31,601 nucleotides of DNA, taken from a virus. Positions 2,633 to 20,364 of this stretch are shown piece after piece. Each line of letters begins with the position of its first letter. Position 1 is the first letter of the stretch. The translations under genes and the position numbers were made by a program. The stretch spans positions 1-31,601 of the IMG/VR virus record IMGVR_UViG_3300005914_000046; one strand, 5' to 3'. The notes under the pieces are model-generated. The model was not told the DNA's origin, ran no database searches, and was given only the letters and a program-made list of their open reading frames with translations.

Positions 2633-2698
2633 GGTTATTGGTTTTTACACCAACACCGCTCAAAAAGGCAAGCATTCGCTTTACGCGGGCATTTGACG

Positions 2699-2758
2699 AC
2701 GTAACAGCCGATCCCCCGTGTTATGCGTCATTTTTGACGCTAAACAAGAGTGTTATAT
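2699..2758. repeat. attC-like recombination site S0 (weakest copy)
   Basis: 60 bases bounded on the plus strand by ACGTAAC (2699-2705; one mismatch to RYYYAAC) and GTTATAT (2752-2758; one mismatch to GTTRRRY). A perfect 6-bp hairpin GCGTCA-TTTT-TGACGC lies at 2725-2740. Its right core GTTATAT is exactly complementary to the left core ATATAAC of the next site (2957-2963), with one gene between them. The stop codon of that gene lies inside this core. The internal arms are less regular than in S1, so on its own this would be weak. Confidence 0.4.
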
Positions 2759-2932
2759 TTCTTTAGCTACTGCTATAATCATCTCTGCTCGTGCGGCCTT
2801 GAGATCATCAACAAAATCTAAATCTTTAGTTTCCTCTTGCTCGCCACAGTGTTCACATCTTACGAAACCATTTTCAATTTCTTCGATCGCACGATCTAAA
2901 AATAAAAGAGCTGCGTTCAAATTACCATTCAT
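2753..2932 (-). CDS. Small CxxC protein carried in a cassette-like unit (59 aa)
   Basis: A frame from ATG at 2932 (MNGNLNAALLFLDRAIEEIE) to TAA at 2753. A GGAG Shine-Dalgarno lies 7 bases upstream. It is mostly helical, with a central CEHCGE motif that could be half of a zinc site, and an acidic C-terminal half (DLDFVDDLKAARAE). The gene is bracketed by GTTATAT (2752-2758) and ATATAAC (2957-2963), perfect complements, as expected for the two ends of one integron cassette. The stop codon lies in the first box. Function unknown. Confidence 0.75.
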   Translation of the reverse strand: MNGNLNAALLFLDRAIEEIENGFVRCEHCGEQEETKDLDFVDDLKAARAEMIIAVAKEI

Positions 2933-2956
2933 ATTATTTCTCCAAAATCATTAAAA

Positions 2957-3016
2957 ATATAACAATGCGCATCAAGTCGGACGCGCTACGCTTGCCGCTT
3001 ATGCGCTGGGTTAGGT
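2957..3016 (+). repeat. attC-like integron recombination site S1
   Basis: 60 bases with the full layout of an integron attC read on the plus strand: left core ATATAAC (one mismatch to RYYYAAC), then AAT, arm GCGCAT-c-AAG-t-CGG, short central stem GCG-CTA-CGC, arm CCG-CTT-ATGCGC and right core GTTAGGT (perfect GTTRRRY). The left arm has unpaired C and T that the right arm lacks, matching the extrahelical bases of known attC sites. The TCAAG in the left arm and TAACAAT at its start are typical of classical cassette sites. The stop codon of the gene at 3011-3178 lies in the right core. Orientation is opposite to the neighbouring genes. Confidence 0.7.
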
Positions 3017-3178
3017 GTTTATATTTCCGCGTTTCATGTGGTGGGCTTGGATCTGGTATTTCAGTTCAGGATGATCTATGACCAATTCCTCTAGGAAATC
3101 GCAGTGAAGCATATTGAGGCGTTCGAGGCTGTCTCGCTGGTAGGTCATTACGAAAATATCTTCTCCCGTTGATTTCAT
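3011..3178 (-). CDS. Small hypothetical protein in a cassette-like unit (55 aa)
   Basis: Starts MKSTGEDIFVMTYQRDSLER and ends in TAA inside the attC core at 3010-3016. The frame is open further upstream to 3265, but that part translates the attC-like element S2, and the same N-terminal peptide appears at the second copy of the repeat (near 5140), so it is an artefact. The ATG at 3178, 9 bases after the GTTAGGT box, is the likely start. Short helical acidic protein (LHCDFLEELVIDHPELKYQ). Bracketed by GTTAGGT (3010-3016) and ACCTAAC (3187-3193), exact complements. Function unknown. Confidence 0.65.
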   Translation of the reverse strand: MKSTGEDIFVMTYQRDSLERLNMLHCDFLEELVIDHPELKYQIQAHHMKRGNINT

Positions 3179-3186
3179 CCATGCCC

Positions 3187-3286
3187 ACCTAACAACACTC
3201 CGCAGCCAATGAGAGCAAGCCGCTCCCACTCGCTGGATTTTAGATTGATTCGTTTTTGCTCTCATAGCTGGGTTTTATGGTTCTAC
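3187..3286. repeat. attC-like element S2, copy 1 of a 100-bp repeat
   Basis: Begins with ACCTAAC (perfect RYYYAAC), followed by AACAC. Arms CAGC-CA-ATGAGAGCAA and TTGCTCTCAT-A-GCTG pair over 14 bp, with one extra base in the left arm, around a loop of about 40 bases. The right end is GGGTTTTAT and then GGTTCTAC, neither a perfect GTTRRRY, so the right core is degenerate. It is 96% identical (4 differences in 100) to 5062-5161. The left core is the exact complement of the right core of S1. Confidence 0.6.
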
Positions 3287-3292
3287 GACTGA

Positions 3293-3382
3293 TCAATGAA
3301 TAGCTGGCTTCGGTCTAGTAACCGCAAGGCATCCATCTTCTTCACTCATTAGTTTTTCCAGTCCCTTCATATCTTTAGTCAT
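3293..3382 (-). CDS. Very small ORF downstream of RuvC-like gene (29 aa)
   Basis: ATG at 3382 overlaps the stop of the RuvC-like gene (ATGA), and the frame ends in TGA at 3293, just before repeat S2. It encodes MTKDMKGLEKLMSEEDGC and eleven further residues. Translational coupling and full use of the gap support expression, but the length makes this uncertain. No function can be proposed. Confidence 0.4.
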   Translation of the reverse strand: MTKDMKGLEKLMSEEDGCLAVTRPKPAIH

Positions 3383-4032
3383 GATTCCCCCCTGGCCATC
3401 GCCAGGTATTTATTTTTAAGTCCGGTTTTCAAGTAATCGATACGCGCCCAATTTGCCAAGCCGATCGAGTCCATGATATCGGTCCAATCGCCTGGATTCA
3501 ATTTCTGAGGCTTGGCTGTCGATTGCATGCCTACGACATTCATCTCAGTGGTGGGATTGAGATCGGGCACGATGTCCTTGCCTGGGTTTTTTCTGACCGT
3601 ATAGCTAAGACCTAAGCTAGAGCAGATTTGGGTATGGTGGATTCGTTTGGCGAGACTGCCTTTCCACTCTTGAGGGTACGGTATCTTTATCTCAGAGGGA
3701 GGATCCCATACGCCGCTTCGATCCCCCGAGACTACGCCTAGCAGGAAAGCCCCCATCTGTCCGAGGTGTATCAAGTCCTGGGGATTGGCAGTGCTTTTGC
3801 CTCCCAAGTACCTTTGGCCTTCCATGACTGCCGTATATTCCTCGCCGCAGTAACATGGAAGATACGCGGAATAAGCTATAATTTGCCGCATCTGAATTAC
3901 CATGGAGTCCCGAGCCGATCGACCCGCCTTATTGCAGATCTTGCTGAGGAAGATCGATTCGACCTTGCCTGCTTCGTCAATGACGGCCACGGACGCTTTC
4001 TTTATATCCGGATCCATTCCTATGAATTTCAT
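3379..4032 (-). CDS. RuvC-like (RNase H fold) Holliday-junction nuclease
   Basis: 217 aa. Begins MKFIGMDPDIKKASVAVID, the first beta-hairpin of RuvC-type nucleases with catalytic Asp7. Glu71 follows in YTAVMEGQRY, and acidic residues Asp182, Asp185 and Asp188 lie in GDWTDIMDSIGLANWA, so the D-E-D/D pattern is present. Phage members of this family resolve branched DNA before packaging. The protein carries a long insert (about residues 100-175), possibly a DNA-binding part. It is the larger of two RuvC-like genes in the window (other at 15985-16506) and sits in the accessory block. Assignment to the superfamily is solid; substrate is inferred. Confidence 0.75.
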   Translation of the reverse strand: MKFIGMDPDIKKASVAVIDEAGKVESIFLSKICNKAGRSARDSMVIQMRQIIAYSAYLPCYCGEEYTAVMEGQRYLGGKSTANPQDLIHLGQMGAFLLGVVSGDRSGVWDPPSEIKIPYPQEWKGSLAKRIHHTQICSSLGLSYTVRKNPGKDIVPDLNPTTEMNVVGMQSTAKPQKLNPGDWTDIMDSIGLANWARIDYLKTGLKNKYLAMARGES

Positions 4033-4069
4033 AGTTACAATATGTCGTGGGCAAAGGTTAGCGATCCCC

Positions 4070-4534
4070 CTAGAACAAGCAGATGCCGTCCAAGTGATCG
4101 CACTCGTGCTGGAAGATCCGAGCGTGGAAGTCGTGAAGAACCCGCGTCTTGCGATTACCCATGGTGTCCGTCCAGGTGGCGCGGATCTCCCGATGGCGTT
4201 TCTTGTACCTGAGCTTTCCTGGAAAGGACAGACATGACTCGGATTGCGATGATGTGAGAGGTCCCACAGGCGTCCAAGTAGGGTTTATGGAGATTTCGCA
4301 TCCGTCGATCTTGCTGACGAAAAAACGCAGCCTTATGCCTACTTGAGGAGCGGATAGCCCTACCCCCCTTCTCTTGCTCCGCTTCTTACGCATAGCCGCG
4401 AGCATCTTATCGGCGTACGGGACCACCTGCTGACGCGAGTCCGTGACGGGATCGCAGATTGCCGTGAGGTAGCTGCTGCCTTGCATTTCGAGCTGAAGCT
4501 CCTCGGTAGGTTCTAGTATTTCTGTATCCGACAT
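4070..4534 (-). CDS. def: Peptide deformylase
   Basis: 154 aa, typical of the compact phage and organelle-like deformylases. All three family motifs are visible: motif I GVGLSAPQVG (57-66), motif II ESCLS (99-103, the metal ligand being Cys101) and motif III HECDH (143-147, two His ligands and the catalytic Glu144). The enzyme removes the formyl group from the N-terminal Met of new proteins, using Fe or Zn. Motif II has Ser in place of the usual Gly (EGCLS). The C-terminal helix beyond motif III is very short, as in cyanophage deformylases. It lies 37 bases after the RuvC-like gene. Phage copies are thought to speed maturation of phage or host membrane proteins during infection. Confidence 0.9.
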   Translation of the reverse strand: MSDTEILEPTEELQLEMQGSSYLTAICDPVTDSRQQVVPYADKMLAAMRKKRSKRRGVGLSAPQVGIRLRFFVSKIDGCEISINPTWTPVGPLTSSQSESCLSFPGKLRYKKRHREIRATWTDTMGNRKTRVLHDFHARIFQHECDHLDGICLF

Positions 4535-4628
4535 GTGATTTTGGGTTGGCTGTTAATCCTGTATTGGATTGTTTTTTCCATTGTCTTTTTGGTTTAGTTT
4601 TCTGGATACCGATCCCTCATCGGGGAGG

Positions 4629-4859
4629 TTATGTTTCCCACCCGCAAAATCGATTGTATGCGGGCAGGCATTCAGGGTCTATCAGCGCCCTCTTTCTCTC
4701 AACCCGATGTTTCCTCTTTTTAAGATATTGGTGGTATCCTCTAGCACGACAGTCTCTTCCATCTGCTTGTTCAACGGCAGCACACATAACAACGCCACCG
4801 AGACAATTCCTCTTAGGCTCCCCTTCTACTTGGTTGATCTTCACTTCGTCTTGTCTCAT
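4629..4859 (-). CDS. Hypothetical basic Cys-containing protein (76 aa)
   Basis: Starts MRQDEVKINQVEGEPKRNC. It contains five Cys (NCLG, VMCAA, RDCRA, PECL, RFCGW), which could bind a metal, and a strongly basic middle (YLKKRKHRVERKRA). No named family recognised. Between it and the deformylase are 94 bases (4535-4628) in which no convincing gene or hairpin is seen. Confidence 0.55.
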   Translation of the reverse strand: MRQDEVKINQVEGEPKRNCLGGVVMCAAVEQADGRDCRARGYHQYLKKRKHRVERKRALIDPECLPAYNRFCGWET

Positions 4860-4868
4860 GGCAAAGGG

Positions 4869-5028
4869 TTATGTGATTATTGATCGCTGTACCCTTCGAT
4901 TCCGATTTCTAAAAAAATTGCGAAGCATAGCCACATCAACCGTAGTTCTCTCGGCTGCCACATCACTTTGGGCCCCCAAAACCACCAAACAAATCCATAT
5001 CTGGATCGGTAGTCGTTTGGTTGCTCAA
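4869..5028 (-). pseudogene. Small gene with an apparent +1 frameshift in a G-run
   Basis: Reading from a TTG at 5028 (preceded by AAGGAAGAGG) gives LSNQTTTDPDMDLFGGFGG, which ends in TGA soon after a run of five G (plus-strand C-run 4973-4977). Dropping one G continues as GAQSDVAAERTTVDVAMLRN and ends RRVQRSIIT at TAA 4869-4871. Together they form a protein-like sequence of about 52 residues. It may be a frameshifted gene, an assembly error, or a translational frameshift site. The longer frame at 4877-5140 in this area is rejected because its N-terminus is translated repeat S3. Confidence 0.4.
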
Positions 5029-5061
5029 GATCCTCTTCCTTGGGGGAAACAATAAATCTAC

Positions 5062-5161
5062 ACCGAACAACACGCCGCAGCCAATGAGAGCATGACGCTC
5101 CCACTCGCTGGATTTTAGATTGATTCGTTTTTGCTCTCATAGCTGGGTTTTATGGTTCTAC
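5062..5161. repeat. attC-like element S3, copy 2 of the 100-bp repeat
   Basis: 96% identical to 3187-3286. Left core ACCGAAC (one mismatch to RYYYAAC), arms CAGC-CA-ATGAGAGCA and TGCTCTCAT-A-GCTG, right end GGGTTTTAT then GGTTCTAC. One difference from copy 1 shortens the hairpin arm by a pair. The stop codon (TAG) of the gene at 5158-5358 lies in the terminal GGTTCTAC. Confidence 0.6.
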
Positions 5162-5358
5162 ATTAGTTCATCTATCAATCTTCTAAGATCAATCGGATTT
5201 ACGACCATCACCCCATCGGGCCATTTGGTGCAAATAGTCAAACCCTCTCGTATGTGACTAGGATTATCACACAGAGATTGTAGGTAATTTAAACGTTCCG
5301 TGTCCGTAGCACAACCCGCATCATTCAATTCCTTACGTTCCTTCGTCTCTTCAGTCAT
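5158..5358 (-). CDS. Hypothetical protein (66 aa)
   Basis: Starts MTEETKERKELNDAGCATDT and ends VNPIDLRRLIDELM, with the TAG inside repeat S3. The N-terminal half is acidic and helical, then ICTKWPDGVMVV, a probable beta hairpin, then a final helix. It lies 7 bases downstream of the previous gene. No family recognised. Confidence 0.6.
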   Translation of the reverse strand: MTEETKERKELNDAGCATDTERLNYLQSLCDNPSHIREGLTICTKWPDGVMVVNPIDLRRLIDELM

Positions 5359-5365
5359 GATTGTA

Positions 5366-5686
5366 CTATTGGATGTTCTCGGGAAGATTCGGAATCAACG
5401 CCCACCCCACCATTGAATCGTGCGGCTCGGTGTCGCTTTCGAAGAATTGCATTTCTCCGTGGGCGCACGCCCCCGGTTGAGCAGTTACCCATTCCTCCAA
5501 TTGGCGGCACCAGAATGTCGGAATGAGGTAAGGCCATCCAAAGTGCGCTAGAATTACCGTGCCGTCTTTCGGCGCGATAAATGGGTCGAGCAACCGAGAA
5601 CAAAACGAAGATCCCAACCCCTCGCCGCTGGGCTGCGGGCAAGCGGTTGAGTCGTGCGAGGTTTTACAGCAAGGGCATACGTTCAT
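5366..5686 (-). CDS. Hypothetical protein with N-terminal CPCC knuckle (106 aa)
   Basis: Starts MNVCPCCKTSHDSTACPQ, a Cys cluster (C4, C6, C7, C16) that could hold zinc. From residue about 35 it has IAPKDGTVILAHFGWPYLIP, then a Trp-rich middle (FWCRQLEEWVTAQ) and a terminal GWALIPNLPE. The order 'PKDGT-hydrophobic, then W, then a Pro-containing end' resembles small phage proteins of the DUF551 kind, but the match is not strong. Function unknown. Confidence 0.6.
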   Translation of the reverse strand: MNVCPCCKTSHDSTACPQPSGEGLGSSFCSRLLDPFIAPKDGTVILAHFGWPYLIPTFWCRQLEEWVTAQPGACAHGEMQFFESDTEPHDSMVGWALIPNLPENIQ

Positions 5687-5758
5687 GGTGTTTTTCGGGG
5701 TGAGAAGTTAAGCGTTATCTAGGAAATTGGAAGAAATCCCATCCCATAAGTTTCATTA

Positions 5759-6037
5759 CTAGTCTTTAGGGTTCGCTAAAGAATAACCGCACCCATAACA
5801 CTTGTCCGTTGATTCTGGATTTGCGGTTCCGCATTCAGGACACTTAATCCGATACGGGCATCCGTGTATTTCGCGCGTGCCGCATAGCCATCCTAGCTTT
5901 CCTGATTTCCTCTGGGAATATCCAACCCCCTGAGTAAACGATCCGGGGTCGGGCCGGGGCCAGTAGCACGAGGCGGTAAGGCATCTTTTGCCAACTACCT
6001 CAACCATTTCTTTTACGTTCTTATCTTTTACTTTCAT
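5759..6037 (-). CDS. Zinc-ribbon protein (92 aa)
   Basis: The start chosen is the ATG at 6037, which lies inside repeat S4; an in-frame ATG at 6073 would translate the repeat itself. The protein begins MKVKDKNVKEMVEVVGKRC. Its C-terminal 40 residues hold a zinc ribbon: CPECGTANPESTDKCYGCG (two CxxC pairs 11 residues apart), preceded by two more Cys (WLCGT, HGCPYR). Probably a small nucleic-acid or protein-binding zinc protein. The 72 bases between it and the next gene (5687-5758) show no hairpin or gene. Confidence 0.6.
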   Translation of the reverse strand: MKVKDKNVKEMVEVVGKRCLTASCYWPRPDPGSFTQGVGYSQRKSGKLGWLCGTREIHGCPYRIKCPECGTANPESTDKCYGCGYSLANPKD

Positions 6038-6086
6038 AACAACTCGTGGTGGCAATTCGTACATCTGCCACACTTGGAGGTTCTAC
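6034..6086. repeat. attC-like intercistronic element S4
   Basis: 53 bases: TCATAAC-AACTC, arm GTG-g-TGGCA, loop ATTCGTACATC, arm TGCCA-CAC, then TTGGAGGTTCTAC. The arms pair over 8 bp with one extra G in the left arm. The element spans the whole junction between two minus-strand genes: it holds the start ATG of the downstream gene at one end and the TAG of the MT-A70 gene at the other. It is closely related to S5 (6702-6758). The cores are poor matches to integron consensus. Confidence 0.45.
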
Positions 6087-6670
6087 GAAGAGAATTGAAT
6101 GTCGTTCGGTAGCTCGTTTCCCCATACGTGCCAGCCCTGTCTTTTTCGGCGCGCGAAGAGCTCCAATCGCGGAGCCTCGCTCTGCCGTTCTATCATATCT
6201 TGAAAGAACTCCGGTTTCTGACTGTGGCGTTTCTGACGCTTCACCTGCCACCATGTCGAATCTTGGCGAGCCTTCCCGGTGGGCATCTTTCCACGGCGAG
6301 CGAGAATCAGGAACTCTGTCGTCGGGCAGTAGAGACCGCCCTGCCCGGTTCCCCTCGGTGCCTTGCACCAAGTTAGCGTTTGGCAGTATCGGAAGCCCCA
6401 CGTTTTCAGAACGTCGAAGGCATCGGGTAGATACTTTTGAGTCACCCACAAATACAGATCGCATTGATCGGCGGCGAGATCCCCCACCGGGAGCGCTTTG
6501 ATTTCGGCCAGCTTCATTTGATCGTATGGCATCGGCTCCGCCTTGGTGGTCTGCACCAATGCCTTCTTGCTCCCGGTGCCCCAGCTCTGCCCGTAGTGCC
6601 AAGGCGGATCTACCACGATGCAACGGAAGCCCGAAGACACAGAACAAGAGGATGATGGGGACGGGGTCAT
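6083..6670 (-). CDS. MT-A70-type DNA adenine methyltransferase
   Basis: 195 aa. Has the MT-A70 catalytic DPPW at 21-24 (CIVVDPPWHYG), then DLYLWVTQKYLPDA, LTWCKAPRGTG, an EFLILARRGK segment, a KPEFFQDMIE segment and the closing RLELFARRKRQGWHVWGNE. This is the usual order of phage MT-A70 proteins, which put N6-methyl on adenine in DNA, using S-adenosylmethionine. Likely role: protection of phage DNA from host restriction. Its start overlaps the end of a 12-codon upstream ORF (ATGA). It lies one small gene away from a second methylase (6941-7693). Confidence 0.85.
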   Translation of the reverse strand: MTPSPSSSCSVSSGFRCIVVDPPWHYGQSWGTGSKKALVQTTKAEPMPYDQMKLAEIKALPVGDLAADQCDLYLWVTQKYLPDAFDVLKTWGFRYCQTLTWCKAPRGTGQGGLYCPTTEFLILARRGKMPTGKARQDSTWWQVKRQKRHSQKPEFFQDMIERQSEAPRLELFARRKRQGWHVWGNELPNDIQFSS

Positions 6671-6705
6671 GATTGTTTGGGGTCTAGTCTAAGTATCATT
6701 TTCAT
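6667..6705 (-). CDS. 12-codon upstream ORF coupled to MT-A70 gene
   Basis: ATG at 6705, inside repeat S5, gives MKMILRLDPKQS and stops at TGA 6669-6667, overlapping the MT-A70 start. It may serve only to bring ribosomes to the methylase start. It could instead be the remnant of a gene start brought in with the repeat, since the zinc-ribbon gene starts at the same place in S4. Expression is unproven. Confidence 0.3.
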   Translation of the reverse strand: MKMILRLDPKQS

Positions 6706-6758
6706 AACAATTTCGTGGTGGCAATTCGTACCTCTGCCACACTTGCGAGGTTATCTAC
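6702..6758. repeat. attC-like intercistronic element S5
   Basis: 57 bases, the second copy of S4 with a few substitutions and small indels: TCATAAC-AATTTC, arm GTG-g-TGGCA, loop, arm TGCCA-CAC, TTGCGAGGTTATCTAC. As in S4, the ATG of the downstream frame and the stop of the upstream gene (TAA 6751-6753) lie within the ends. The left end AACAAT is the same as in attC-like S1. Confidence 0.45.
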
Positions 6759-6951
6759 TTAAAGCCCGATTCGCTTTGCGTTCAATGTCATCCATCGCAG
6801 ACCTTCGAGACTGCCGACTATCGGAGTCGGCTACAGCCCACGTAGAAATAACCTTCAGCGCGTTTTCCATTCGGTCCCAATCTTCGGTCGTTCGCCCAGT
6901 GTCGAAGTTTTTCATGCCGATTCTGCCGTATAGTTTTCCTTTATATTTCAT
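6751..6951 (-). CDS. Small hypothetical phage protein (66 aa)
   Basis: Start ATG at 6951 (MKYKGKLYGRIGMKNFDTGR), overlapping the methylase end by 11 bases; an ATG at 6966 would add five residues. The N-terminal KLYGRIG...FDTGRTTEDWDRME pattern is common in small phage proteins of unknown function. The C-terminus is basic (SRQSRRSAMDDIERKANRAL). Its TAA is inside element S5. Confidence 0.65.
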   Translation of the reverse strand: MKYKGKLYGRIGMKNFDTGRTTEDWDRMENALKVISTWAVADSDSRQSRRSAMDDIERKANRALSR

Positions 6952-7693
6952 GATGATTGATTTCAATAGTGTTGTGGGGAATGAAGAGTTCCGTTTGCGA
7001 CGTTTCCCGATAGATTCGAGCCTTGGCCGCTTCGTAGTAGTCTGGATCTATCTCGCAGGCCGTCAGATCCATTCCTGCGTAGTGCGCGGCGATGGCGATG
7101 CTTCCGCTTCCCAGGTGCGTATCAAGCACCCGCATTCCGGGTTCCGCGAAGATGGACAGCAGCCACTTATAGAGAGCTACGGGCTTCTGCGTCGGGTGGA
7201 TTTTACCGCAACCGCCGCCGCCTTGATTGTTCCATCGGAAGAGTTTTGCAGGCTTGTTGAAGCTCGTCCATGCCATTTCCCACGCAGAGAAGTTTGGCCA
7301 TGGCTGTTCCTTATCCCATGAGATAACGCAGCGTGTCGGCGGCAAAGGGAAGTAGTTCCCTCCCCAAATAATTTGATTTTTCGAGACCCGCCTGAGTTCG
7401 TCGAAGTATTCCGGGCGGGGAGCCACATCCCATTTAGTATTCCCTGTATTGAGCACTCTGTTTTTCAGCTTTCCAGCACCATTCAATGAGCGTTCCGAGT
7501 TCATTTCTCCGCCCGCTTCTCCGATGCCGTAGGGCGGATCAACGATTGCCAGATCGAAGTGTCCATCCGGGAAGGTTTTCATAACATCCATACAGTCGCC
7601 GAGCCGCAGATCCAAAGACCCACAACAAGACGGTGCATGGAACACGGCGGGCGCGTCCTGCGTAATTTCGAGCGTGAAGATTTCCGTGTCCAT
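6941..7693 (-). CDS. DNA (adenine-N6 or cytosine-N4) methyltransferase, beta order
   Basis: 250 aa from the ATG at 7693, which is one base after the upstream stop; the frame is open 59 codons further but that part overlaps the upstream gene. Motif order is beta-type: catalytic DPPYGIG (52-58) first, then a target-recognition stretch, HPTQKP (166-171), and the SAM-binding motif as LDTHLGSGSIAIAA (190-203), in which His-Leu replaces the common Pro-Phe (DPFxGSG). Such enzymes modify adenine N6 or cytosine N4. No restriction nuclease is next to it, so it is probably an orphan protective or regulatory methylase. Confidence 0.88.
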   Translation of the reverse strand: MDTEIFTLEITQDAPAVFHAPSCCGSLDLRLGDCMDVMKTFPDGHFDLAIVDPPYGIGEAGGEMNSERSLNGAGKLKNRVLNTGNTKWDVAPRPEYFDELRRVSKNQIIWGGNYFPLPPTRCVISWDKEQPWPNFSAWEMAWTSFNKPAKLFRWNNQGGGGCGKIHPTQKPVALYKWLLSIFAEPGMRVLDTHLGSGSIAIAAHYAGMDLTACEIDPDYYEAAKARIYRETSQTELFIPHNTIEINHHEI

Positions 7694-8120: not shown

Positions 8121-8167
8121 AACATACACACTCAGACAACTAGTGCAAGCATTGTTTGCAGTAGTGT
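8121..8167 (-). promoter_or_regulatory. Leftward promoter with operator palindrome, copy 1
   Basis: 47 bases, 45 of them identical to 8410-8456. On the minus strand it has TTGCAC (8148-8143), a 16-base spacer and TATGTT (8126-8121), reasonable -35/-10 boxes reading toward the RHH-methylase operon. An imperfect dyad (CTAGTGCAAGC-ATT-GTTTGCAGTAG) covers the -35 box. The repeat is conserved exactly as far as the -10, which supports a leftward promoter plus operator. Confidence 0.5.
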
Positions 8168-8407
8168 GTGAATCTATACGGGTGATAGCTTGGCAGTAGA
8201 TCGGTTGGAAAGCTCGGTTTAGCGGGAGGCTAAAGATGAATTGCCAAGATCGAAACCTGACTTACTAGAAATATCTCATCTAGGACATATTCCACTCATC
8301 GGTTATGCCATCCTCCACCCGCTAAATTGAGCTTTCAATTTCGCTTTCGCTGTTTCTTTGTATCTATCATTTCATTCTTTGGTTTTGGTTAGGTTAAATC
8401 ATTGGGG
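8168..8407. ncRNA. Structured tract A between the two promoter repeats
   Basis: 240 bases with no plausible gene. The main feature is a 19-bp pairing between 8208-8226 and 8318-8336 (ends TTTAGCGGG and CCCGCTAAA), including two G-U pairs if the plus strand is the RNA or two C-A mismatches if the minus strand is. CTTGGCA (from about 8189) can also pair with TGCCAAG (from about 8242) as an alternative fold. Either strand could be transcribed: the copy-2 promoter at 8410 would read through it leftward. An origin or packaging structure is a possible alternative. Confidence 0.35.
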
Positions 8408-8409
8408 CA

Positions 8410-8456
8410 AACATACACACTCAGACAACTACTGCAAACATTGTTTGCAGTAGTGT
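8410..8456 (-). promoter_or_regulatory. Leftward promoter with operator palindrome, copy 2
   Basis: Second copy of the 47-base repeat. Minus-strand boxes TTGCAG (8437-8432), a 16-base spacer and TATGTT (8415-8410). Its dyad is perfect: CTACTGCAAAC, ATT, GTTTGCAGTAG (11-bp arms), so it is probably the stronger binding site. It would drive leftward transcription into tract A and then on through copy 1. Confidence 0.5.
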
Positions 8457-8460
8457 TGAG

Positions 8461-9003
8461 GAATAAATCGTTAGGCAGGCTGCTGTACGGCTCCTGAGTT
8501 AGTCCCCTCTATCCATAGCATAGCTAAAGACAGAGGAGACTAAACGGAAAAAGGAATAAATCCTCAGTGTAGGAGATAGACCCACTAGCAACACATCGCC
8601 GCGATATGGAAGTCCCCATAAAAATTCTAGGCGTCTTTGGCGTGTTACTTTCGTCTGCTAAGGTGTAATCCCTTTGCAGCCTAGAGAAGCAATCTGTGCT
8701 TCTCAATCGCTAGGCCAGTCTATTATCTCCCTTTTCGGGTAGTGTACCTAATTGGCCGTTAAGCAGTAAATCTAGAGACGGCGATCAGAGTTCCGGAGAG
8801 AACGGAGCCACTAAAAGAGAAAGGCCACTATCGCGTCAAGCAATAATGGCCTCCAAATTCTCCAGAACTCTATGACCGCCACCTCACCGCCGATTCATAT
8901 TACTGTCAAGTAAAAGAGTTTGCTCCCGCCACGGTTGGCTTACCGGGGAGCTCGATAATCTTATAGGGCATGAAGACCCTCGCCTGACACTCGTGGCTTA
9001 TCA
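8461..9003. ncRNA. Large structured non-coding tract B beside the tRNA
   Basis: About 540 bases lacking a credible ORF but dense in long stems: TTAGTC-c-CCTCT with AGAGG-a-GACTAA (8499-8543); GCCTA-GAGAAGCA with TGCTTCTC-...-TAGGC (8679-8715); a nested 23-bp arm from GGCG (8780) and GAGTTC, GGAGA, AGGCCA to TGGCCT, TCTCC, GAACTC and CGCC (8880); GCTCCC...CGGT with ACCG-GGGAGC (8922-8951); and GATAA...TTATC (8954-9002) enclosing AGGG/CCCT. This density next to a phage tRNA recalls large ornate phage RNAs (GOLLD, ROOL), but no sequence match was checked. The strand is not settled; the adjacent tRNA is on minus. Confidence 0.45.
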
Positions 9004-9087: not shown

Positions 9088-9374
9088 AAATTGGAGTCAT
9101 TGGATGGATTCAAACCACCGACTTTTTTAAGAGCTTTCCGATCACCGCCCGTGTTAGGGACGTTTTCATTTAGACCAATGACATTGGTCGGGAGCTGAAA
9201 TACCCATTCAGCCAGGCCGTGCAGGTCGCTATCCTGCGCCGGATTCTGTTTTTCCCGATAATATGAAAGAACAATCCCCGCCACACGCTGGAGCTCCCAC
9301 TGATCCCGCAGAGACCAACAGGAGCAACTTCGCGTGTGAAGTCGAAGATGAGGAGAGTGAAATACTACTTGCAT
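9078..9374 (-). CDS. Doubtful ORF overlapping the tRNA region
   Basis: 98-codon frame starting MQVVFHSPHLRL. Residues about 22-65 (LRDQWELQRVAGIVLSYYRE and following, to EWVFQLPTN) look protein-like and amphipathic, but the frame runs through the tRNA-like element and into the first bases of tRNA-Thr. It could be a remnant of a gene disrupted by tRNA acquisition, or chance. No family recognised. The 102 bases from 9375 to 9476 contain a 5-bp hairpin (TGGCC/GGCCA near 9433) and no clear promoter. Confidence 0.25.
   Translation of the reverse strand: MQVVFHSPHLRLHTRSCSCWSLRDQWELQRVAGIVLSYYREKQNPAQDSDLHGLAEWVFQLPTNVIGLNENVPNTGGDRKALKKVGGLNPSNDSNLVL
9092..9182 (-). other. Possible tRNA-like element, 4 bases from tRNA-Thr
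   Basis: Read on minus, GTCATTG (5' end) pairs with CAATGAC near the 3' end, followed by TCCA. A T-arm-like GGTGG-TTTGAAT-CCATC precedes it directly. A 5-bp stem with loop CTAACAC (T33, A37; anticodon AAC) is possible. The overall length of 91 fits tRNAs with a long variable arm. However, the D-arm is not recognisable, T56 replaces the invariant C, and the 5' half is also part of another palindrome (9173-9189). It may be a degenerate tRNA or a chance fold. Confidence 0.3.
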
Positions 9375-9476
9375 AAATAAATCAAGAATTTTATCGCATT
9401 AATGCAAGGAGTGTGTATCAGTCTTTCCCAGATGGCCAATCCGGCCAGCGTGTGAAACCTAAAAAGAATTGAAGAT

Positions 9477-9659
9477 ATGGCTAATAGTGTGAAGAAGAGA
9501 ACCAGGGACTGCCCCCCCTATAAAGCAATGTACGAGCAATCGCAGAACGACCTAGATGTCACGATCGCGAAGCTCTCCTATACCGAGGCTAAGTTGAGTG
9601 CGGAGATAAACTACTCAGCGCAACTCAAGAAGCTCTTGAATAGAAAGGAGCGGGTATAA
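9477..9659 (+). CDS. Small hypothetical protein, first of early operon (60 aa)
   Basis: Starts MANSVKKRTRDCPPYKAMYE. Basic N-terminus, then a helical, probably coiled-coil stretch (SQNDLDVTIAKLSYTEAKLS...LKKLLNRKERV). Its stop overlaps the next start (TAATG). No family recognised. As the first rightward gene after the control region, it might be a regulator or accessory factor, but nothing in the sequence proves it. Confidence 0.6.
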   Translation: MANSVKKRTRDCPPYKAMYEQSQNDLDVTIAKLSYTEAKLSAEINYSAQLKKLLNRKERV

Positions 9660-11368: not shown

Positions 11369-12307
11369 ATGAATCATCTTTTTAACGATGGACTGCCTGA
11401 AGCTATTCTTCTTGCGGTCAGCAATGATCAATACGATCCAGGAGAGAGCGACTACACGCCTTCTTCCCTGAACTCAGCCGCATACCAACGTAGGCTTGAG
11501 AAAGACACTGAGGCTCAACTGAAGCACTTTAAGGATTCTAACCAATTAAAACAGTATTCAAATCTCTTGAGGCAGGTCCAGCAGCCAGCTTCAAAGCGAA
11601 TCTGGGCATTACTCGGTTCAGCCGTTCATTATATGATTGAATTGGCGGGAGATAAAGCTGAACACTTGGAATGTGAACATCGTTTCTACGGAACGGTCAA
11701 AACGCTCTTCGGCGACAGCAAGATAGGCGCTCAGATTGACATCTTAGATACGATTAAGAATGCGATCTTCGATATGAAGGTCACGTCGACTTACGTATTT
11801 GCGGGAGGAATCAAACCGGAGTGGGAGGCTCAGTTGAATGTTCAACGATGGTGCGTCTGGAAGGAATCCGGGCGAGTAGTCGATTCATTGAACATCGTTG
11901 CCATCTGGAAGGATTGGAGTCTATCGCGTAAACATGGAGTTTACCCGGATTCGCAATGCTCGAACCTGGAAGTGAATGTGTGGCCAATGTATGTGACTGA
12001 AGCATGGATTCGCGAGAAAGTCGTTGAACGTGAATCAGCGATGCAAGCGGATTCATTGGATGAAGTAACGCCTTGTTCCGATGTAGAAGTCTGGGCTAAG
12101 CCGACTAAGTACGCAGTCACTAAGCCTGGAGCATCGAGAGCAATGAAAGTCTTCGATGTAGAAACCGAGGCTATTGAATACTCATCAACCAAAGCTGAAG
12201 CATTCGTGAAAACCCGCCCAGGAGCTCGAACCCGTTGCGAAGGATTTTGCGATGTCGCCTATATTTGCCCCGCATTTAACGCTCACAAAAAGGAGTATTC
12301 AGAATGA
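11369..12307 (+). CDS. Cas4/RecB-like PD-(D/E)XK nuclease
   Basis: 312 aa. The nuclease core is visible: GSAVHYMIE with His87, GAQIDIL with Asp124, FDMKVTS with Asp135 and Lys137, then the EWEAQLNVQRW helix (Gln155). At the C-terminus TRCEGFCDVAYICPAF carries Cys290, Cys294 and Cys300, the arrangement of the iron-sulphur cluster found in Cas4 and AddB-type nucleases. Such phage enzymes resect DNA ends as 5'-3' exonucleases for recombination. It follows the SSB-like gene, so the two probably form a recombination pair. Strand polarity is inferred. Confidence 0.8.
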   Translation: MNHLFNDGLPEAILLAVSNDQYDPGESDYTPSSLNSAAYQRRLEKDTEAQLKHFKDSNQLKQYSNLLRQVQQPASKRIWALLGSAVHYMIELAGDKAEHLECEHRFYGTVKTLFGDSKIGAQIDILDTIKNAIFDMKVTSTYVFAGGIKPEWEAQLNVQRWCVWKESGRVVDSLNIVAIWKDWSLSRKHGVYPDSQCSNLEVNVWPMYVTEAWIREKVVERESAMQADSLDEVTPCSDVEVWAKPTKYAVTKPGASRAMKVFDVETEAIEYSSTKAEAFVKTRPGARTRCEGFCDVAYICPAFNAHKKEYSE

Positions 12308-12945
12308 CAGTCAAAGAAATAACTGAGAAGATTAAACTCCATGTTCTTTGGTCAGAAGGTGATGCAATGGGAGAGATAGCCAACTTCCGTGGAGCCGACC
12401 TCCGTAAAGCCGACCTCAGTGGAGCCAACCTCAGTGAAGCCAACCTCCGTGGAGCCAACCTCAGTGAAGCCGACCTCCTTGGAGCCAACCTCCGTAAAGC
12501 CGACCTCCGTGAAGCCGACCTCCGTGAAGCCGACCTCAGTGGATCCGACCTCCGTGGAGCCGACCTCAGTGGAGCCAACCTCAGTGAAGCCTACCTCCTT
12601 GGAGCCAACCTCCGTAAAGCCGACCTCAGTGGAGCCAACCTCAGTGAAGCCAACCTCCGTGGAGCCGACCTCCGTGAAGCCAACCTCCGTGAATCAGTGA
12701 TTCACGCATCTGTATGTTGGTCAGATCATGGCGAATGTGGGCGAATATTGATGGCTTATAGCATAAGGCCGTTTAAAAAAGTAATATACTCATGTGGATG
12801 TTTTTCAGGAGAGATAGAGGATCTGTTAGATTACATCGATAAGGGGAGTGATGAATTCTCAAAATCTCGCAAACTAGCCTGCTCTTTCATCAGGGATAGA
12901 ATTAATGAAATGATTATATCAAGAAAGGAATACTTAGAAAAATGA
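12304..12945 (+). CDS. Pentapeptide-repeat protein with C-terminal domain
   Basis: 213 aa. After an N-terminal helix (KEITEKIKLHVLWSEGDAM) come about 21 tandem pentapeptides, residues about 28-133, of A(D/N)LXX type (ADLRK, ADLSG, ANLSE). These form a right-handed quadrilateral beta helix. The C-terminal 75 residues have three Cys close together (SVCWSDHGECG, IYSCGCFSG) and a helical end. Some pentapeptide proteins mimic DNA and protect or inhibit gyrase (Qnr, MfpA); here that is only a possibility. Starts in an ATGA overlap with the nuclease gene, with AAGGAG upstream. Confidence 0.85.
   Translation: MTVKEITEKIKLHVLWSEGDAMGEIANFRGADLRKADLSGANLSEANLRGANLSEADLLGANLRKADLREADLREADLSGSDLRGADLSGANLSEAYLLGANLRKADLSGANLSEANLRGADLREANLRESVIHASVCWSDHGECGRILMAYSIRPFKKVIYSCGCFSGEIEDLLDYIDKGSDEFSKSRKLACSFIRDRINEMIISRKEYLEK
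12388..12692 (+). repeat. 15-bp tandem repeats in pentapeptide gene
   Basis: The DNA repeats a 15-base unit like GGAGCCGACCTCCGT, alternating GGAGCC/GAAGCC, GACCTC/AACCTC and CGT/AGT/CTT endings. All units keep a 15-base period, so copy number can change without frameshift. The regularity also keeps the other frames open (for example, frame 12389-12700 on plus), which are not genes. Confidence 0.9.
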
Positions 12946-15992: not shown

Positions 15993-16506
15993 ACGAATCC
16001 TAGCCCTAGACATCTCGCTCCATACTGGATGGTCATTCCAAGTCGGAGACGGACCAGTCAGTACGGGAAGCGAATCATTCGCTATCAAACCCAAGGTCCG
16101 GGCTACAATGACGAAGGAGCAAATTCTAGGCGAACAGTGTCTCAGCTTTGCCAAGTGGATGCGGGAAATGCTACGTGACTGGAACCCTGACGAAGTTGCA
16201 GTCGAAAAGGGATTCATCAATGTCAGCAATTCAACGGAGATTCTTTTCATGCTCCAGGGAGTTCTAATGCTCAACACCAGATACCGGGATATAAACGTCT
16301 TCAGATACGCTACATCATCACTCAAGGCTTATGCCCTAGTACCGGGATACGGAAAACGCTACCCGGACCTCTCAGGCCCCCATCGCCGTAAAGCGATCAA
16401 GCTGGAAATGTTCGAAGCTGCCAAAGCGAAAGGCGTCGATGTCGCCAATGATGACGAGGCCGACAGCTTTTGGTGCTTATGCCTTCACAAACAGACTACA
16501 GGTTAA
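15985..16506 (+). CDS. RuvC-like Holliday-junction resolvase
   Basis: 173 aa, the usual length for RuvC proteins. Catalytic residues: Asp9 in ILALDISLHTGW, Glu74 in EVAVEKGF, and Asp156, Asp157 and Asp160 in ANDDEADSFW. That is the D-E-D-D set of the RuvC fold, which cuts four-way junctions with Mg2+. Last gene of the rightward operon; its final 11 bases overlap the end of the convergent tailspike gene. The second RuvC-like gene (3379-4032) has the same catalytic pattern but different length. Confidence 0.85.
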   Translation: MNKRILALDISLHTGWSFQVGDGPVSTGSESFAIKPKVRATMTKEQILGEQCLSFAKWMREMLRDWNPDEVAVEKGFINVSNSTEILFMLQGVLMLNTRYRDINVFRYATSSLKAYALVPGYGKRYPDLSGPHRRKAIKLEMFEAAKAKGVDVANDDEADSFWCLCLHKQTTG

Positions 16507-18079
16507 CTTTGCGCCCCGTCTCTTCCCATACTTGATCATTGAACATCGTCAGCACTAGGGTATCTCCAGCGGCCATCACGAAGTTCGCAGATCCATTAAG
16601 TAAGATATTAGTACCATCCGTTATAGTGACAGCATGAGCCGAGAGCAGTCTAATTGTTTGACCTACAACGCCGTCATCGAAGTCTGTTATTGTAGTGGTT
16701 CCGCCAGTGATCGCAATATCGATCCCCAAAACCGTAGGAGTGGCGTCATTCGCCAAAGTGGTAGGGCCGAAGCTCGTCGTTGAGCGCTGTCCGTTGAAAG
16801 ACTTGATTCTTCTAGTGGCTCCTCCACCTATCGATTCCGATGTGGCTGGAATTCCTGTCGGCAATGATCCATCTGCCGTGTAGGAAACTATTTCGTTGTA
16901 GATAATGTCTGACGTATCGTCCGTAGTGATGGTTAGATAAACCCCAGTCGATGTAATCGTAGCTGCGGTACTGAAATCAACTATCGTGCTGATTCTGCAT
17001 CTCGCGTTGTCGGTGTAGACCGCCGAGAAGTTGCCAGTAGACGGAATTGCTACAGTGTTGTCGGCCAGTAGAAGCATATCGATTTCCAAGTCGGAATCGA
17101 ATACGCGAAGCCAAGCGTTAGCCGATCCGGCAGCAGTGGTCGCATCGCAAACCTCACATCTCAGAAGACCGATAACTCCAGAACAGTTCTGGAACTGGAA
17201 GGCGATCTTATTGGCCCTATCCGCAGCGAAGCTCTCGATAACAAGCCCAGAGCAAGCCTGCATGTAGAGAGCCCTTCCTGAAGTCCTAAGAAAGTCCGAT
17301 TGGAGCGAGTAGCATTGCTTGAAGCTCAAGGTCGTATTGGATACGCCATGAATGTAGAAACCGTAGTTGTCCGAATCCTGGGAAGTGCAAAGATCGAACT
17401 CGCCTAAGAACGTGCTGCCCGTAGATGGGTTGTAGAAATTGTGATACCCATTGGAAACCGAAATGTTGAAAATCTTATAATTCGAAGTGATGACCGACGC
17501 GCTAGAGAGCAATACCCCAGACCCGGCAATGGCAGTTTGAGGCGTAGTGTAGATAATCCTGAAATCACGCAACTGAAAGCGAGAAGTGATTGTAGCCGTA
17601 CCCGTACAGTCGATCGCGTTGTAACCTGTACCAGTGGCTGTGATAAGCGTTCTGCCATCCCCCTGAAGGATGACTCCGGTTTTCATTAGGATTGGGCCAG
17701 TGATGAGGTGACTATTTCCAAGCCGAACTATCCCCCCGTTATTTAGATTCGCATAAGTAATCGCTAGATTAATCATAACCGTGTCATCGGCCACCCCGTC
17801 GCCTACCGCCCCGAACATATTGACCGAGATACTGCTCTGATCCGTTCGGATGAATCGCCCCGTTGTCGTGTCGGCTAGTTTGACGATTGTCCCGTTGTCA
17901 TCGGTTGCCGTACTAGAAGCGTCCCAGAAGAAGCCACCGCCGCCGCTATCGCCCTCGGTAGTGTGACCGGATACATCAGCCGTCTCGTTGTCGGTAAGCC
18001 CTTCACCGGACAATAGACGAAGATTCGCCAAACTGTCGAAGGTGTGTCGGCGTGTGTTGCCTTGGATGGATATGCTCAT
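16496..18079 (-). CDS. Tailspike with pectate-lyase-like beta helix
   Basis: 527 aa. N-terminal 90 residues form a head-binding/linker part, followed by SVNMFGAVGDGVADDT, the classic start of phage beta-helix spikes. Regular beta-helix turns follow (about 110-430: GILLMK-type rungs, SGVIGLLRCEV, NTTLSFKQCYS). Residues 430-527 are a beta-rich C-terminal part (TPTVLGIDIAITGG...MFNDQVWEETGRKVNL). Spikes of this type bind and often cut surface polysaccharide. Starts in a TAATG overlap with the gp16-like gene. Enzymatic activity is inferred from fold. Confidence 0.85.
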   Translation of the reverse strand: MSISIQGNTRRHTFDSLANLRLLSGEGLTDNETADVSGHTTEGDSGGGGFFWDASSTATDDNGTIVKLADTTTGRFIRTDQSSISVNMFGAVGDGVADDTVMINLAITYANLNNGGIVRLGNSHLITGPILMKTGVILQGDGRTLITATGTGYNAIDCTGTATITSRFQLRDFRIIYTTPQTAIAGSGVLLSSASVITSNYKIFNISVSNGYHNFYNPSTGSTFLGEFDLCTSQDSDNYGFYIHGVSNTTLSFKQCYSLQSDFLRTSGRALYMQACSGLVIESFAADRANKIAFQFQNCSGVIGLLRCEVCDATTAAGSANAWLRVFDSDLEIDMLLLADNTVAIPSTGNFSAVYTDNARCRISTIVDFSTAATITSTGVYLTITTDDTSDIIYNEIVSYTADGSLPTGIPATSESIGGGATRRIKSFNGQRSTTSFGPTTLANDATPTVLGIDIAITGGTTTITDFDDGVVGQTIRLLSAHAVTITDGTNILLNGSANFVMAAGDTLVLTMFNDQVWEETGRKVNL

Positions 18080-20364
18080 TATTCTGCTGTGTTGGTTAGT
18101 CCCACTGCTGCGGATTTACTTAGCGTCTCAATGTCGGATTGTTGTACCGATCTCGCTAATGCTCGTTTCACAAAACTGGATTTGAAAAGTCTATCGAGTT
18201 CACCGGGAGAAGGTGGCCCCTTTAATGCGCTGCCAAGCTCCTTGGCGAAGTCATCATTGATAGCCGCTTGGAACATAACTGTAGCCCGATCCTTCAGAGA
18301 TACGTCTCTTAATGCCTGTTTCGTGCTCTGTCCAAATACGAACATTTTACCGATAGCTGCCTTCCACCCCTTATCCGCTTCTTTGTCGATCGCTCGTTGA
18401 ACCGTCGCCTCAAGGCTTATATCCGTTCCTTTTCTATAAGATTCCAAGATCCTTCTAAGTCCTGAGAGTCTAGCCTTTTGCTTGGGACCACTAGCGAGTT
18501 CAATAACGACATTAGCAGTATCCTCGTTCCTGCCGAATACAGCCTTGAATATGTCATTGGCGTTAGCTCCATTCTCAAGGGTTCCTAATTTAGAAGCGAT
18601 GTAATTCGAATGAAGATCGTTTGCCACGTTTGGATCGACCTTCCTTAGTTGATCCATGAATCGTTTTGAGTTTTGGATATTCTCAGGTCTCGGATTGAAT
18701 AGCGATGTCTGGAAGTTCTTTAAAGCCGTATCCTTCTTGGAAGCGGCATCGCCAACCGAGCTTTGAAGGATTTTCTCGATATCATCGGACATCTTGGAGA
18801 AATTCTTATCGGCAGCTCCGTACCTGCCTTTAGTGGAGCGATTAAGCGCTGCGGTAACTGACTTCTCAATCTGCTTGGCCTTGTTCTTAACTGAGCCAAG
18901 CGTAGAAGTATCGGCAGTAAGCTTTTGGATATCTCGAAGAACCCAATTGATTTCTTGAAGCAATCCCGCTCTCATCTCTCTCTTTGGCAGTGGCGGCAAA
19001 GCCGTTTTTACCAGATTGCCTCTAGCATCTACTAAATCAGGGGCATCCTTCGCTAGTTGGCTTCTCTTAGCCAAAGCTGCATCGTACTCATCGGTAGTGA
19101 ACATGCCCTTGAGCTGTTCGAGTTTCTTTCGCGCTGGCGAATTCTTAACGGTCTTTAATGAAATTAAATTATCAATCTCGTTTCGAATCGGACCTAGATC
19201 TATCTTGGGAGCTCCAGCGAAAGCCTTGTCATACATTACATCGGCGACCCCTGTGCGAATCTTCCTAGCATCTTCTATAATGCCCTTGGATACCGTTCTA
19301 GCTCCTTCTAGGGATTCAAGAGATCCGACTTCGGTTGAGATTTCCTTTTGGAGAGCCTTGAGCATAGACCTTGATTGGTCCTCCATCGTTCTAGTCACTT
19401 CGCGAGCTGCCGATTCGTTTACCTTGGCCCCCTCTCGGAGTCCTGCCAATGGGCGCTGAAAATCCGTAGATGCATCGCCAGCGAGCGCTTGGGCTCCTAG
19501 TGGAGTGTCTACATCCAGCTTCTTTGCCAGTTTGCCTTCATCGACGTACCGCTTCAATAGATTGACACCTTGCTCTCTAGGAACTCCTGCATCGGCAAGA
19601 TCATCCAGGGTCTTAGCCGATTCGATCGCTTTCCGCTTCGCTGGGGAAAACTTAGCCCAAGCTTTGCCAAACAACGGGCCTACGGCTTCCGCCCCGGCGC
19701 CTAGAGCAACATCCAAAACAACCTCCTCTACGTTGAAATCGCCTCCAAGTCCTTCTTGAGCCTCCTGAACTCCTCCGCTCGTTATTCCTGAGAACAAGGA
19801 ACCTAAACCCATTTTAGACCAGATACCCGCGCCCATTCCTGCGGCCTTTGCGGCTGGAGCGAATAGAGCAATCTGCCCAGCAGTTGAATAGAGGTCAGTC
19901 CGAGACATGCCAGGTTTATTTATAACGAACTCTTGACCGTCCGGAGTTTTGGCAAACTGAAGACCACCTTGATCCTCTACTTCGATACCCATCGACTTTA
20001 GAGCCTTGGCACGTTCCTTGTCATCAGGGATAAGCACCGTTCTCATTGCTATTCCGAAAGCGTTTTTCTGAGATTCCCCCGTAAAAAACTCATCTGGTAA
20101 CGGATTATAGGAAACTAATTCATCGAGACCCTCTGCCCGAGCCTTAGCCTCTTCTGAGAATGCTGAATTGCCTCGACCAACTGGAACCTCGGAGACCTGA
20201 AACGTCTGATTCATAAACGGTCGAGTCTCATTCGTTCCCGTAGATTTGTAAGTTTGAGGCCTCTCTGATTCGGGTACATCCACAGGTGGAGCCATCTCGA
20301 ACTTCTGAGAAGGATCGAATCCCGCAGGAGTGGTCTTGAAGGGTTTATTTGGATCAAAAGCCAT
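18079..20364 (-). CDS. gp16-like DNA ejection protein
   Basis: 761 aa. Starts with two copies of a FDPxxxF motif (FDPNKPFKTT, FDPSQKFEMA), common at the N-terminus of P22-type ejection proteins. Residues about 155-215 are hydrophobic and Gly/Ala-rich (TAGQIALFAPAAKAAGMGAG), fit to contact a membrane. The rest is long charged helices. Last of the three ejection genes in P22 order, before the spike. In P22 the equivalent is released with the DNA and helps it cross the inner membrane. Assignment rests on composition, size and synteny. Confidence 0.8.
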   Translation of the reverse strand: MAFDPNKPFKTTPAGFDPSQKFEMAPPVDVPESERPQTYKSTGTNETRPFMNQTFQVSEVPVGRGNSAFSEEAKARAEGLDELVSYNPLPDEFFTGESQKNAFGIAMRTVLIPDDKERAKALKSMGIEVEDQGGLQFAKTPDGQEFVINKPGMSRTDLYSTAGQIALFAPAAKAAGMGAGIWSKMGLGSLFSGITSGGVQEAQEGLGGDFNVEEVVLDVALGAGAEAVGPLFGKAWAKFSPAKRKAIESAKTLDDLADAGVPREQGVNLLKRYVDEGKLAKKLDVDTPLGAQALAGDASTDFQRPLAGLREGAKVNESAAREVTRTMEDQSRSMLKALQKEISTEVGSLESLEGARTVSKGIIEDARKIRTGVADVMYDKAFAGAPKIDLGPIRNEIDNLISLKTVKNSPARKKLEQLKGMFTTDEYDAALAKRSQLAKDAPDLVDARGNLVKTALPPLPKREMRAGLLQEINWVLRDIQKLTADTSTLGSVKNKAKQIEKSVTAALNRSTKGRYGAADKNFSKMSDDIEKILQSSVGDAASKKDTALKNFQTSLFNPRPENIQNSKRFMDQLRKVDPNVANDLHSNYIASKLGTLENGANANDIFKAVFGRNEDTANVVIELASGPKQKARLSGLRRILESYRKGTDISLEATVQRAIDKEADKGWKAAIGKMFVFGQSTKQALRDVSLKDRATVMFQAAINDDFAKELGSALKGPPSPGELDRLFKSSFVKRALARSVQQSDIETLSKSAAVGLTNTAE

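Follow-up and report, generated by a model that had tools for sequence, protein, structure and literature searches.

A viral contig of 31,601 nucleotides (IMGVR_UViG_3300005914_000046; this whole stretch is called the window below) very probably carries, on a phage, a mobile integron cassette array of the CALIN type, that is, a cluster of attC sites lacking an integrase. As read from its sequence, the region displays the anatomy of integron cassettes together with the marks of a recent exchange of units through junctions of the integrase type. Two aspects of it appear to be new: the precise exchange of cassettes between unrelated phages, and the antisense orientation of the genes relative to their attC sites, which recurs beside one clade of MT-A70 methyltransferases.

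Core boxes and attC sites of the array

An earlier note on this DNA had described two cassette-like units bracketed by reciprocal core boxes. Direct reading of the sequence finds all four boxes, GTTATAT (2752-2758), ATATAAC (2957-2963), GTTAGGT (3010-3016) and ACCTAAC (3187-3193), and the pairs GTTATAT/ATATAAC and GTTAGGT/ACCTAAC are each complementary at 7 of 7 positions. The observation is confirmed, and its interpretation in terms of integron cassettes is supported. Each unit holds one small minus-strand gene with its TAA stop codon inside a core box, as had also been claimed. The gene of cassette 1 (2753-2932) is an ORF encoding 59 aa with a CxxC motif, has no PHROG or Pfam match and ends in GTTATAT; that of cassette 2 is an ORF at 3011-3265 ending in GTTAGGT, with a probable start at 3178 (3011-3178, ~55 aa). 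The array is bounded on its left by S0 (2692-2758, plus strand), which ends in the core GTTATAT and is a candidate insertion site, its likeness to an attI being one of position only.

The attC of cassette 1, S1 (2957-3016, plus strand), ends in the core GTTAGGT. It follows the same plan as the attC sites of class 1 cassettes (aadA2, aacA4), with a close, class-1-like sequence (TAACAA...TCAAG.CGGAC/CGACC..GCGCTACGC...GCTTA...GTTAG in comparison with aadA2). Unlike class 1 cassettes, the window has the gene antisense to the attC, and no IntI, attI1 or Pc is recognized in it. A fold check agrees with the description of S1 given earlier, in that unpaired C and T residues occur solely in the left arm in the plus orientation; the site folds on either strand. 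Its folding energy alone is modest (z -1.97), being equalled by 6-7 of 200 shuffles.

The array proves longer than the two units of the earlier note, both of which stand, with six or more attC-like sites in the interval 2957-6756. These sites start at 2957, 3187, 4784, 5062, 6034 and 6702, all on the plus strand. Every gene is encoded on the minus strand, and cores repeatedly contain a stop codon (2753, 3011, 4629, 5158, 6083 and 6751). In the attC sites whose two arms were compared by eye, the left arm has the extra base. The feature called S2 in the earlier note is indeed part of an attC, being the left end of a ~100-bp site, D1a (3187-3286, plus strand; R'' ACCTAAC, R' GTTCTAC), which belongs to cassette 2, has an extra unpaired base in its left arm and has a copy at 5062-5161. 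Further along, the array includes a minus-strand ORF encoding 217 aa (3379-4032), with no Pfam or PHROG match and no relatives found in a search with its protein, and a minus-strand peptide deformylase gene (4070-4534; PF01327 1.4e-30, phrog_2890 2.9e-27). The cassette start core GTTATGT (4628-4634, plus strand) holds the stop of the minus-strand ORF 4629-4859 and is complementary at 7 of 7 positions to the R'' box ACATAAC at 4784. This box opens the site A0 (4784-4874, plus strand; ACATAAC ... GTTATGT), whose R'' and R' boxes are again complementary at 7 of 7 positions and which scores 29.0.

The next cassette (4869-5161, plus strand) ends in the copy of D1a, D1b (5062-5161; R'' ACCGAAC, R' GTTCTAC; score 23.3), and the core GTTCTAC at 5155-5161 contains the stop of a minus-strand gene for 66 aa (5158-5358). 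A minus-strand gene for an MT-A70 DNA methyltransferase (6083-6670; PF05063 2e-25, phrog_359 4.6e-47) lies between two attC-like sites on the plus strand. The first, D5a (6034-6086), is short, scores weakly alone and ends in the GTTCTAC that holds the stop of the methyltransferase gene; the second, D5b (6702-6756), ends in the GTTATCT that holds the stop of the minus-strand ORF 6751-6966. D1a and D1b form a 101-bp repeat that is 96% identical, with identical 3' halves, and the D5 copies are 97% alike. D1a, D1b and D5a all end in the off-consensus GTTCTAC, and reciprocity is not obeyed by all units: the start core and R'' box are complementary at 7 of 7 positions in three cassettes of the window and three of a second phage described below, and at 4-6 of 7 in the others. 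Elsewhere in the window, a pentapeptide-repeat-like protein with ADLxxANL repeats is encoded at 12304-12945, its coding DNA forming an internal tandem repeat in which other frames are open too.

Scores were obtained with an attC scorer trained on 28 attC sites taken from integrons of class 1, Shewanella and Vibrio, for which the leave-one-out range is 19.9-39.1. The score of S1, 31.6, is the maximum in the window, lies inside the range of known sites and was not reached when the whole window was dinucleotide-shuffled 300 times. D1a scores 27.9. Five sites on the plus strand score at least 23 within 4 kb, the largest cluster in 300 shuffles being two, and the window thereby contains the two or more attC sites in the same orientation within a few kb by which a CALIN is recognized. 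The covariance-model check proposed with the earlier note gave a weak result in favor of S1, since a home-made model built from 24 attC sites places S1 first in the window and matches it at full length with 14.6 bits and an E value of 0.3. The same model gives 20.9 and 17.5 for the attC sites of phage TJE1 and leaves the D1 and D5 sites unmatched. The suggestion that S0 is itself an attC is unconvincing, as its copy in the second phage scores 23.7 at best, inside the range of shuffle maxima.

A site at 8406-8476 with a score of 29.6 was rejected as an attC; it belongs to an inverted repeat in a probable operator region, and this palindrome calls for caution, as the attC scorer can be fooled by such structures. 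A 47-bp repeat (8121-8167 and 8410-8456) holds the near-palindrome ACTACTGCAAACATTGTTTGCAGTAGT, lies in a divergent region before a tRNA-Thr gene and looks like an operator pair for two opposing transcription units. In database searches, an Rfam scan of the window found tRNA only, blastn of S1 against plasmids returned a single chance-level match, the strict S1-type pattern was absent from the viral contigs searched, and a near-identity search among phage records gave no match. A 17-mer of D5 occurs in three contigs with no wider similarity and was judged a chance match.

Units shared with a second phage

The 3' part of the D1 repeat is found exactly in one viral contig, IMGVR_UViG_3300022848_000047 (G005). 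Two blocks of the window, 3009-3286 and 4865-5378, are 97% identical in G005, where they stand beside different cassettes. S0 is 88% identical to G005 17758-17821; in each phage this similarity stops within the core, at G|TT(A). Its exact 28-mer occurs, among viral contigs, in G005 only. The first cassette beside S0 in G005 carries a PAPS-reductase-like gene (phrog_424) with its own attC (18601-18695; cores 7 of 7), and the same place in the window is taken by cassette 1, with its 59-aa gene and S1. What follows the shared second cassette in G005 is a gene for 65 aa whose attC is of the D5 type (19167-19216, to which D5b is 94% identical), bounded by GTTATAC/GTATAAC. D5a is a 90% match to a site of G005. 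Cores of G005 are reciprocal at 7 of 7 positions twice for GTTAGGT/ACCTAAC and once for GTTATAC/GTATAAC. The block at 4865-5378, with its 66-aa gene, matches G005 19502-20024, the similarity starting at G|TT. The precise gain and loss of units that the earlier note had asked for is thus observed, as G005 swaps the first and third cassettes around the 3009-3286 unit at G|TT cores.

Four of the five junctions between the window and G005 fall at the G|TT of a core, for which the chance expectation is ~2e-7, given 20 near-consensus cores in 4.3 kb; at the remaining junction (5371) the window has no consensus core. One could regard the region as ordinary phage genes with intergenic hairpins, its blocks being swapped by homologous recombination at the repeated hairpins with no integrase involved. 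Such swapping is in keeping with the near-identity of D1a and D1b and of the D5 copies, and with the closest structural relative of the window phage (G002), which has an MT-A70 gene (9187-9656) beyond the portal gene with no attC sites nearby. However, at three junctions, namely the right side of S0|cassette 1, the left side of cassette 1|cassette 2 and the left side of the 4868 junction, the two phages have unrelated sequences next to the block that they share. Homology there is limited to a few core bases, offering little substrate for homologous recombination, yet these junctions lie at G|TT. Hairpin swapping does not predict reciprocal cores either, and we consider it very unlikely as an account of the whole array. 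The identical 3' halves of D1a and D1b do indicate homologous recombination between these copies as well.

The gene of the shared second cassette is identical in both phages, and its attC (3187-3286) differs from that of G005 (18866-18965; score 31.5) at ~8 of 100 positions. In the window, the 3' half of D1a is that of D1b (5062-5161), which suggests conversion between attC copies.

The two phages differ in type. The window phage is podovirus-like, with a portal protein of podovirus type (phrog_156), a head closure protein (Hc3) and no recognized tape measure, and G005 is a siphovirus with a tape measure, a J-like tail fibre and RecE/RecT. They share a tail-fibre gene that is 92% identical over 1.56 kb, which suggests a common host. 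No integrase is visible in the window, as had been noted earlier: neither TIGR02249 nor PF00589 was matched. The integron integrase profile (TIGR02249) also found nothing on G005, and that of tyrosine recombinases (PF00589) nothing on G005, G002 and a near-identical phage (G001) whose record does not cover the array; these records, and that of the window, may be incomplete. Since no tyrosine recombinase is visible, the region is read as a phage CALIN on which a host integron integrase is the enzyme most likely to act. A search for a host integron with the D1 pattern in genome contigs had no match.

The lack of a phage integrase, the several degenerate cores (GTTCTAC) and the mixture of attC families would also suit a dead remnant: a chromosomal integron of bacterial origin that was carried into a phage on a single occasion and became fixed there, its cassettes now being immobile. 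Against this stands the presence of 97% identical units in different neighbourhoods of two unrelated phages, which speaks for recent movement, and a differing first cassette followed by a shared second one fits ongoing insertion at one end. A dead remnant is accordingly judged quite unlikely. A differing first and a shared second cassette are also expected if cassettes enter at S0. Alignment of S0 with attI1 gave no significant similarity (p 0.06-0.12), so the role of S0 rests on its position.

Orientation of the cassette genes

An ordinary cassette has its gene pointing toward the attC of the same cassette, an orientation that is usual, not obligatory. The genes of the arrays in the window and in G005 are all opposite to the attC sites and read away from their own attC, a point that the earlier note had not drawn out. 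Codon scoring agrees with the antisense assignment in three of four units of the window and all four of G005; in the remaining unit the two scores tie, both below zero.

Relatives were fetched with the array's MT-A70 methyltransferase (6083-6670). Among those with at least 54% identity, an attC adjoins the gene in about half. Where polarity is clear, which we define as a margin of about 5 or more, 15 of 16 loci are antisense and one (L085) is forward; with the window included, the count is 16 of 17. None of the scanned distant homologues (at most 40% identity) has an attC nearby, which serves as a control on false positives. The phage contig of locus L015 carries five cassettes with 7 of 7 cores, and codon scores call four of the five genes antisense. 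Another phage (IMGVR_UViG_3300020171_000022, with head-closure, Erf and PrimPol genes) has a pair of attC arrays, one per strand, with eight sites in each (16182-19421 and 5421-7546). Both arrays include an MT-A70 gene, in either case oriented against the attC sites, and 10 of 14 genes of both arrays were called antisense. Fifteen attC sites with cores reciprocal at 6 or 7 of 7 positions form a dense array on the viral contig IMGVR_UViG_3300032156_000999 (L012, 1793-8020), which has a terminase match and, for integron integrase, just a weak 16-bit partial match. Codon calls in this GC-rich array are mixed (8 forward, 4 reversed), the scoring being uninformative on very short cassette genes there; the antisense rule is either not universal or not readable in L012. 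Terminase genes are also present on the contigs of L015, L016 and L020, and no integron integrase above the family cut-off was found on the viral contigs. Two viral loci, L019 (2847-5883) and L020 (7873-13286), have Treponema-like attC sites of ~130 bp, with polarity uncertain in several.

It may be asked whether the use of flank motifs to call attC polarity has produced the reversed orientation as an artefact. The sites are near-palindromic, and the 130-bp Treponema-like sites of L019 and L020 give small strand score margins. The loci counted above, however, all have margins of 5 or more, and the same scorer calls bacterial-type control arrays mostly forward (6 of 7 genes in L035, 11 of 14 in L042). 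A TCAAG-type left arm with an extra base is a known marker of attC polarity, and it is present in S1, L013, L015, L068 and L076. An artefact of this kind is therefore unlikely.

Comparison with known systems and a proposed mechanism

The capture of attC clusters without an integrase by phages is already known, and the exchange together with the antisense pattern is the apparent novelty here. The earlier note had called captured cassettes rarely described; rare they are, but they have been published as integrase-less attC clusters, the available text of Qi et al. 2023 (PMC9892861) giving 17 phage CALINs, some with methyltransferases, and phage-borne attC sites, including those of TJE1, that are active in being recombined by IntI1 in E. 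coli. The CALINs of the virulent phages TJE1, P12002L and PH101 resemble the array of the window as integrase-less attC clusters with small or methyltransferase genes. The cassettes of TJE1 and PH101 have the typical structure with genes in the same direction, whereas the genes of the window are antisense to the attC sites; units of the window are also common to a different phage, and neither sharing between phages nor antisense cassettes as a rule is described in the available text of that study (PMC9892861). In the open-access literature searched, with most subscription journals and preprints outside its scope, neither inter-phage cassette exchange nor antisense cassettes were reported.

The "reverse integrons" of Treponema (PMC3607928, PMC7691350) are similar in having an unusual relative orientation. 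There, the integrase gene is turned and the gene stop lies on the R'' box of its own attC, whereas in the window the gene itself is turned relative to the attC. Chromosomal-integron fragments of Vibrio and Shewanella prophages (L042 and L035) likewise have reciprocal cores and attC arrays in phage records; unlike the window, they carry IntI and mostly forward genes.

In the mechanism that we propose, each unit is a cassette made of a core GTTRRRY, a small gene and then an attC site. The integron integrase of a common host would act in trans during infection, cutting and joining phage cassettes on folded single-stranded attC sites. Replication and transcription of the phage DNA may offer the single strands, on which the attC bottom strand would fold and recombine. 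Captured genes would be transcribed from the leftward operon of the phage. Because this operon runs leftward and the attC sites rightward, only cassettes with antisense genes would be expressed and kept. More tentatively, S0 could be the insertion point, with new cassettes entering at the 3' end of the operon.

A wider hypothesis, which we put forward as possible though short of an even chance, is that phages hold a distinct pool of antisense cassettes, with the stop codon drawn from the core GTTA. These would be passed between unrelated phages of the same host by the host integron integrase and would be inserted at a capture site that the phage carries distally in an operon, so that the arrays would be integrase-free integrons that use the host enzyme and have their orientation set by phage transcription.

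Integron cassettes are a currency of bacterial gene exchange. Phages could move methyltransferases and small genes of unknown function from one lineage to another and return them to hosts. The antisense orientation recurs in several phages; it could provide a simple rule to recognize phage-adapted cassettes from sequence, and it raises the question of whether the attC folds on a strand that is exposed by phage transcription. With the same cassettes and integrase-type junctions in two unrelated phages, phages would actively trade in the cassette pool.
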